From: Chloroflexota bacterium
Lineage (GTDB): Bacteria > Chloroflexota > Limnocylindria > QHBO01
NCBI GenBank assembly: GCA_013816405.1
Contig: JACDEL010000002.1
Span: forward strand, 20,325 to 84,324
Direction of reading: 5' to 3'
DNA: 64,000 bases
Part shown: in pieces, positions 59,331-60,992 of the stretch
How the letters are laid out: each line of letters begins with the position of its first letter
How positions within the stretch are numbered: position 1 is the stretch's first letter
The notes under the pieces: model-generated
The model's input: only the letters and a program-made list of their open reading frames with translations
Databases searched by the model: none
What the model was told of the DNA's origin: nothing
Translations under genes and position numbers: made by a program

Positions 59331-59469
59331 GCGTCATGCCTCGCTGTAAGGTGGGGGATGAGTGTACCGATCGGGCCATTGCGGAGTTGACAGGCACCGC
59401 TGCTATACTTTCCGAAGCGAACTTCCGAGCAACGCGGCGCACACCGCGCCAGAGGAGAAGACCGATCCC

Positions 59470-59901
59470 ATGACGATGACCGAATCGACCCCGCAGACAG
59501 CCCCATCGGCTCCGTCGGCCGCTCCCGCACCCGCCAGTGAGCTGCTTGTCAGCATGACCGACGCAGCCGCCGTCAAGGTGCAGGAGCTTCGCTCACGCGA
59601 AGGCAAGGCCGATGCAGCCCTACGCCTCTTCGTGAAGAGCGGCGGATGCTCGGGCTTCAGCTACGGCCTGGCGTTCGATGACAAGATCGCTGACGACGAC
59701 CGGGTCGAAGACCACGCCGGCGTGCCGATCGTGATCGACGCCTTCAGCGTCCAGCACGTCGCCGGCGCCGAGATCGACTACGTCGACTCGCTGATGGGCT
59801 CCGGCTTTGCGATCAACAACCCCAACGCGGTGAGCAGCTGCTCGTGTGGGCAGTCCTTCAACACCGATGGCTCCCCTGCCAAGGCAGGCGGCTGCCACTA
59901 G
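59470..59901 (+). CDS. HesB/IscA family iron-sulfur cluster assembly protein
   Basis: LRLFVKSGGCSGFSYGLAFDDKI...YVDSLMGSGFAINNPNAVSSCSCGQSF. Confidence 0.93.
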   Translation: MTMTESTPQTAPSAPSAAPAPASELLVSMTDAAAVKVQELRSREGKADAALRLFVKSGGCSGFSYGLAFDDKIADDDRVEDHAGVPIVIDAFSVQHVAGAEIDYVDSLMGSGFAINNPNAVSSCSCGQSFNTDGSPAKAGGCH

Positions 59902-59950: not shown

Positions 59951-59965
59951 GTGTCCGCGGGTCCT

Positions 59966-59982
59966 TACCAATGACATTGGTA
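59966..59982. repeat. Palindromic motif copy 1
   Basis: TACCAATGACATTGGTA. Confidence 0.9.
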
Positions 59983-60047
59983 CAACTGCCGCTACATCCG
60001 AATTCTGCGGGTTTGAGGGGCCTCGGAGCCTGCCCCATACGTGGGCG

Positions 60048-60064
60048 CACCAACCACATTGGTA
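60048..60064. repeat. Palindromic motif copy 2 (two mismatches in the left arm)
   Basis: cACCAAcCACATTGGTA. Confidence 0.8.
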
Positions 60065-60098
60065 AGGCGACGCATCAAGCAGCGCAATCGCGCTGTTG

Positions 60099-60115
60099 TA
60101 CCAATCTCATTGGTA
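60099..60115. repeat. Palindromic motif copy 3
   Basis: TACCAATCTCATTGGTA. Confidence 0.9.
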
Positions 60116-60137
60116 TACGCGGCCTGACTCGCCCCCG

Positions 60138-60992
60138 CTAGTTCGAAGTGAGGGCCCAGACCTGGCGCGCGCCGGTCACGCCCTTCAGCTCGTGCGAGCC
60201 GCGGTCTGCGAAGCGCAGGTCTGCATCGGCCACCAGCTCATGGGTCGTGCCTGACAGCAGCACCTCGCCCGGTACCGCGAGAGCGGTGATCCGGCTGACG
60301 ATGTGGACAGCCACACCACGGATGTTGTCGGGGATCAGCTCAACCTCGCCGGTGTGCACTCCGCAGCGCAGGCGAAGACCGAGCCGAGCGGCCTCGGCGC
60401 TGATGGCCACGCCACATCGGACCGCGCGCTCGGCGCCGTCAAAAAGAGCGATCAGACCGTCGCCGGTGTTCGCGGCCACTCTCCCGCGGAACTTGTCGAT
60501 CTGGCGCCTGCTGACGGCATTGAGCTCGGCCAGCATCGAGCGCCACGCCGCGGGGCCGACCCGCTCGGCGGTCGCCGTCGAGTCAACGACATCGGTGCAG
60601 ACCAGCGTTGCCAGGATCCGTTCACTGCGCGAAGCGGCGGGCAGGGCGAAGGTGCGCATCCCGGCGAAGTCGTACTGGATCACCGGCTTGTCCCCAACCA
60701 CCCATGCGTCGTGCCCCGGCAGGATCTCGAACAACATCCCGGGGCTCACTTCCATCTCCAGTCCCTCGGGAGTGATGTAGTGCAGCGTCCCTTCGATGAT
60801 CAGGCCCAGGTGGTGGTATTCGCACCACTCCGTCTGGGCAATCGGCTTGACGTCCTTTGACCATTTCCAGCCGGGTTCGAAGGTGATCTTGCCAACCACG
60901 AAGTCGCCGAGGTTCCAGATGTCGGTGCGGCCGTGTGGAATGGTCCGCGTCTCGTCCGGCATGTCGAGTGACTTGCGCTGCATGCTGCCCAT
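60138..60992 (-). CDS. Cupin domain fused to class III nucleotide cyclase domain
   Basis: Cupin-like WCEYHHLGLIIEGTLHYITPEGLEMEVSPGMLFEILPGHDAWVVGDKPVIQYDF; cyclase-like LATLVCTDVVDSTATAERVG...FRGRVAANTGDGLIALFDGAERAVRCGVAIS...LRLRCGVHTGEVELIPDNIRGVAVHIVSRITALA. Confidence 0.85.
   Translation of the reverse strand: MGSMQRKSLDMPDETRTIPHGRTDIWNLGDFVVGKITFEPGWKWSKDVKPIAQTEWCEYHHLGLIIEGTLHYITPEGLEMEVSPGMLFEILPGHDAWVVGDKPVIQYDFAGMRTFALPAASRSERILATLVCTDVVDSTATAERVGPAAWRSMLAELNAVSRRQIDKFRGRVAANTGDGLIALFDGAERAVRCGVAISAEAARLGLRLRCGVHTGEVELIPDNIRGVAVHIVSRITALAVPGEVLLSGTTHELVADADLRFADRGSHELKGVTGARQVWALTSN

Follow-up and report, generated by a model that had tools for sequence, protein, structure and literature searches.

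The lambda operator is a 17-bp dyad that begins with TA, and the operator regions of lambda and 434 hold three sites each, spaced about two helical turns apart. In the res site of Tn3/gamma-delta, three dimer sites in helical phase form one complex. In REPIN/RAYT systems, short extragenic palindromic elements, dispersed and belonging to several families, go together with a dedicated protein gene on the chromosome, and this gene often has such elements at its sides. MITEs are short noncoding units with terminal inverted repeats and with copies elsewhere.

The locus analyzed here is a triple palindrome in a Chloroflexota genome, within a stretch of 64,000 nucleotides that, at its full length, is termed the window. 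Its nearest building block is the lambda/434 operator, with which it shares the 17-bp dyad (lambda) and the homologous helix-turn-helix (HTH) fold of the candidate partner protein; however, the sites in the present arrays are 5 to 8 turns apart, the arrays are dispersed over the genome, and the partner domain is not the repressor C terminus. The three phased sites recall res, but no serine recombinase was seen here, and the equal 17-bp sites form at least 11 intergenic copies that are conserved in place. The features of MITEs listed above all recur, with some of the copies next to the presumed partner gene, but here there is no known transposase family and no proven target-site duplication, and the sites are under in-place selection. 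Those of REPIN/RAYT recur as well, with 11 to 12 arrays of one family per genome; in contrast to that system, the partner, instead of being a Y1 HUH enzyme, pairs an XRE-type HTH with a PD-(D/E)XK-like domain that is unclassified, each element consists of three double-strand 17-bp sites in phase, and several orthogonal pairs occur per genome. In the open-access literature, preprints excluded, no described system corresponded to the partner domain or to the element, and no match to such a protein-element partnership was found. The best reading is a REPIN/RAYT-like partnership of protein and repeat that is built from unrelated parts.

The array in the window

The original prediction placed three 17-bp palindromes between convergent genes, with centers 82 and 51 bp apart. 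The positions, the arms, and the two mismatches in the second site are all exact, the start-to-start spacings agree, and the genes do converge, the left one ending at 59901 (plus strand) and the right one at 60138 (minus strand). The features of the locus are as follows.

59966..60115, no strand: the complete 150-bp array element, comprising the three 17-bp palindromes and, at its ends, 24-bp inverted repeats
59966..59982, no strand: site 1, TACCAATGACATTGGTA, with perfect 7-bp arms
59983..59991, plus strand: inner flank of site 1, CAACTGCCG; the family consensus is CAACNGCGC
60048..60064, no strand: site 2 (middle), CACCAACCACATTGGTA, with two arm mismatches; center 82 bp (8 turns) from that of site 1
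60065..60073, plus strand: sequence flanking site 2, AGGCGACGC, including a conserved CGC at +7 to +9
60090..60098, minus strand: inner flank of site 3, GCGCTGTTG, which is CAACAGCGC on the minus strand; same flank profile
60099..60115, no strand: site 3, TACCAATCTCATTGGTA; center 51 bp (5 turns) from that of site 2
59362..59901, plus strand: left neighbor, outside the element, an IscA/HesB-like iron-sulfur protein (assigned by reading the translation); the span is that of the listed ORF, with the likely start at about 59471
60138..60992, minus strand: right neighbor, outside the element, a cyclase-domain protein (PF00211)

The core consensus of the sites is YACCARYNNNRYTGGTR. A profile of 46 inner flanks from the source genome (G000) and a sister species (G002) places CAACNGCGC next to both outer sites, toward the interior of the array, and the middle site is flanked to its left and right by CGC at +7 to +9. 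A small inverted repeat predicted at 60080-60095, CAGCGC-aatc-GCGCTG, is present; the right half of this repeat coincides with the conserved flank on the inner side of site 3, CAACNGCGC on the other strand. Nothing as strong as the inner flanks was found on the outer sides, so the array forms a closed, nearly symmetric unit. The unit measures about 150 bp and is bounded by inverted repeats of 24 bp, which in the window array are 92% identical; copies of such units occur elsewhere.

The consensus TACCARYNNNRYTGGTA, with its inner flank CAACNGCGC, lacks the GTAG or CGTC tag of the REP single-strand hairpin foot. Dispersed extragenic palindromes with a linked and often adjacent protein gene could suggest that a RAYT (Y1 HUH transposase) mobilizes REP/REPIN elements here, but the arrays are built from 17-bp sites, three per array, that lie apart in helical phase, not from single hairpins, and Y1_Tnp (PF01797) was detected in none of four genomes (G000, G002, G001, and G009), compared with 5 of 14 positives in a control set. 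We regard this explanation as highly improbable, and as refuted for these genomes unless all four assemblies happen to miss a RAYT. The present system behaves like REPIN/RAYT yet falls outside it, no Y1 transposase having been detected in the four genomes.

Dispersed copies and helical phasing

Across the source genome (2.5 Mb, 102 contigs), the motif has 28 sites with up to two mismatches, compared with none for a reversed control pattern. It is not randomly scattered: when more degenerate members are counted, all but one of these sites sit in clusters of three, the lone site, on contig C80, lying inside an ORF and looking like chance. There are 11 arrays, each of exactly three 17-bp sites and all intergenic. 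The triple palindrome in the window is one of at least 11 dispersed copies of a short three-site DNA element, which is apparently associated with its own small DNA-binding protein.

The 22 start-to-start spacings in these arrays are 50/51 bp (8 cases), 61/62 bp (6), 71/72 bp (7), and 82 bp (1), or about 5, 6, 7, and 8 helical turns, which puts all of the sites on the same side of the helix. They are phased with R = 0.97 at a period of 10.25 bp, a value that none of 20,000 random sets equaled, and R is 0.96 for 73 spacings across several array families. The 10.3-bp rule is not universal, given that the spacings in one family, found in genome G012, are 50 and 64 bp, the latter off the grid. In all probability chance or a low-complexity repeat played no part in producing the array: at up to three mismatches, the window contains 3 motif matches where 0.16 are expected from shuffles (none of 100 shuffles reached 3), and both the phasing and the orthologous conservation described below speak against such an origin. 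We consider it quite probable that the array is a discrete element on which three dimers of an XRE-type HTH protein sit along a single helical face, with several paralogous protein-array pairs per genome; the dimers would form one complex that needs helical phase. The suggestion that the locus is a protein-binding array upstream of neither gene holds in part.

By our own gene calls, the neighbors of the 11 arrays are convergent in 3 cases, codirectional in 6, and divergent in 2, at distances of 13 to 780 bp. The idea of an operator for an unannotated transcript gained no support: nothing scored at or above the gathering threshold of any Rfam family, the flanking genes are unrelated, and all orientations occur. 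An RNA element was rejected on the same Rfam result and because variants of the sites disrupt and preserve RNA pairing equally often, in either arm.

Conservation in place and copying of whole units

The sister species, of the same genus (7 contigs), has 12 arrays, of which 11 are at loci that carry arrays in the source genome; as the original prediction had proposed examining, the arrays are conserved in relatives, with all 11 recurring at orthologous loci. Between the two genomes, the arms are 90.3% identical, compared with 71% for the three central bases, 71% for the linker ends, and 58.2% for the linker middles; the flanking genes are mostly 80 to 90% identical. Both spacings are the same or differ by at most 1 bp in 9 of the 11 orthologous pairs, and the orthologue of the window array has the identical 82/51 spacing. 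The spacings that changed did so by roughly whole turns (71 to 51 and 62 to 71) or by 1 bp (61 to 62). With the arms better conserved than the linkers, the sites are held in place while the intervening DNA drifts. Read from sequence comparison, this in-place conservation shows that the arrays also matter where they stand, and it is not a consequence of mobility alone. Because the sites are conserved far better than the linkers, we infer that arrays, once placed, keep a local job.

An unbiased search of the same genomes for similar palindromes 40 to 140 bp apart identified further array families, namely, TTTGCACNNNGTGCAAA, CACAACNNNNNGTTGTG, and those beginning with ATTCCCGC, TGCACRCC, GATAAGC, and ATGACC. 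At one locus, a TTTGCAC array in the source genome is replaced by a TACCAAT array in the sister species. Two CACAAC arrays of about 120 bp in the source genome are absent, with clean edges, from the corresponding locus of the sister species. Elsewhere, the arrays upstream and downstream of one gene are full-length direct copies, linkers included (139 bp at 82% identity, 140 bp at 81%, and 119 bp at 74%), and two nonorthologous arrays of the source genome are 77% identical from end to end, in opposite orientation. Judging from these alignments, whole arrays have been duplicated as units that end at the outer palindromes. The gained arrays in the comparison of the two genomes have no clear target-site duplication; a possible one, the 3-bp TAG, was seen at the nitrilase locus only. 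The notion of a small mobile remnant holds in part; no sure target-site duplication was found.

Dispersed, intergenic, strongly kept sites in helical phase could also be chromosome-structuring sites (nucleoid, partition, or bridging platform) that do not spread as elements, and multivalent sites would suit bridging. This alternative is improbable: each genome has several families with different palindromes, and arrays have been gained or have switched type at one locus. A partition-type site, as originally suggested, is likewise unlikely, and parS was rejected as a candidate, the array motif being unlike the TGTTTCACGTGAAACA-type 16-mer; a single near-canonical parS site occurs per genome, elsewhere.

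Other palindrome clusters were observed in the course of these searches. CACAAC-type arrays with spacings of 50 to 51 bp adjoin TACCAAT arrays in the source genome (L009:5056-5174, L014:3399-3517, and L015:5735-5852); a partner gene was looked for in that genome for the CACAAC-type arrays and for array family C, and none was found. Chloroflexi BP4.bin83 (a MAG so labeled) has CACCAACNNNGTTGGTR arrays of up to five sites at 50/51-bp spacing, and no partner gene was found in the stretches examined (L069, L077, and L088). Triple arrays of CACCAATACGGTTGGTG in G008 (L037 and L038) have a different flank, AAGCGGAA, and spacings of 61, 112, and 124 bp. The Blastocatellia nzgw74 (L057, L058, and L068) and Chersky_418 (L060, L064, and L101) carry dispersed CACCAACNNNGTTGGTG palindromes, several per genome, with 65- to 81-bp spacing and a TTCATAC flank, which are apparently unrelated. 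Similar palindrome pairs in records of Blastocatellia, Paraburkholderia, and Shewanella look like tandem or simple repeats, and two weak protein-profile matches in those records are generic HTHs and were dropped.

Candidate partner proteins and their palindromes

On contig C60 of the source genome, a 210-aa XRE/HTH_31 protein is encoded (L007:6512-7144), 140 bp from an array of its own. It belongs to a family of proteins of about 200 aa that have an HTH of the lambda/434-repressor type (HTH_31 in 31 of 32 members and HTH_3 in 27 of 32; matches among solved structures include 434 repressor and C.BclI) and an unclassified C-terminal domain that no Pfam or NCBIfam model matches. Among the 32 aligned members, E82, D94, E107, Q116, and R120 of this domain are invariant, and K125 is nearly so. 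The order E-D-E-Q-R-K resembles that in PD-(D/E)XK folds, although the usual Lys of ExK is absent; this likeness is our own reading of the motif order. Most genomes of the source family have one to eight relatives, clear full-length members within the phylum sample are confined to two families of one class, and searches for viral or plasmid relatives found none.

Phased palindromes flank 20 of the 32 partner-family genes but only 38 of 359 control genes (p = 7e-11), a contrast that is conservative, since the control genome itself carries arrays; by the detector used, about a third of the 32 genes have no phased array. The palindromes differ between paralogues. Direct repeats of G(A/G)TAA with an 11-bp period were also observed before 18 of 38 partner genes and 1 of 733 control genes, at about -120 to -150 from the HTH (e.g., L247, L246, L235, and L185); present whatever the palindrome, they look like the site of a shared regulator.

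The arrays lie upstream of many partner-family genes, which fits autoregulation, and together with the retention of sites in place this raises the alternative of ordinary triple operators, with the HTH proteins as transcription regulators and the dispersed arrays as their regulon. However, the genes beside arrays share no function, the orientations and distances are as mixed as described above, and arrays have been duplicated and inserted as whole units. We consider this alternative unlikely, and the discrete element with a dedicated HTH protein remains our preferred reading.

The recognition helix and the palindrome change together. The partners in the source genome and the sister species have the same helix, SQQLASWAELG, and the same TACCAAT palindrome, whereas the orthologue in G001 (70% identical) has the helix SQQEASKAEKG and the palindrome TACCACGTNACGTGGTA; SQQ and the outer TACCA are kept, and the changes fall in the remaining helix residues and in the inner bases (TACCAAT versus TACCACGT in the two types of site). 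At least six arrays in G001 carry the TACCACGTNACGTGGTA motif, four of them at loci of TACCAAT arrays in the other two genomes, including one at the gene itself. In a second orthologous pair, both the HTH and the palindrome have changed (GATAACC versus GATAAGC), and in a third (GAGCGC versus TGCACRC), the HTH has changed while the C-terminal domain is nearly unchanged. An array of the TACCACGTNACGTGGTA motif (spacings of 61 and 72 bp) was also seen in the source genome, at L321:5305-5454 (C98:36304-36453); the partner in that genome goes with TACCAAT.

In two other genera, motifs beside partner genes predicted dispersed arrays. In G009, the motif GAGTCACGNGTGACTC was derived from a pair of sites next to a single gene; that genome has five or more additional clusters in which the sites are 50 bp apart, compared with none among the matches listed for three other genomes. 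The motif from the G012 gene, CGCCGATANATCGGCG, has 63, 71, and 41 forward matches in three genomes where a matching paralogue is present, compared with 15 and 16 in two genomes where it is not. The C60 protein is the likely partner of the TACCAAT arrays in the source genome; its binding to the sites is suggested by the association and the co-change, both of which are features of sequence.

How the arrays spread is less certain. The C-terminal domain may be, or may have been, a nuclease that copies or moves arrays, as thought for RAYT with REPINs, a tentative proposal by analogy that we rate slightly below an even chance. The likeliest route would be copying through a nuclease activity of the partner, with repair from another array. 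More broadly, the case is evenly balanced for XRE-HTH/PD-(D/E)XK-like families, each with its own set of phased triple-operator elements that it spreads and maintains, in which HTH specificity and the dispersed sites co-evolve and several orthogonal copies operate per genome. Such families would offer natural matched sets of DNA-reading helices and palindromes in which the evolution of HTH specificity is directly testable, and would give a likely target for proteins in which the C-terminal domain fits none of the Pfam or NCBIfam models. They would also represent a second, unrelated solution to the puzzle posed by REPIN/RAYT, that of how short repeats live long with bacterial chromosomes.
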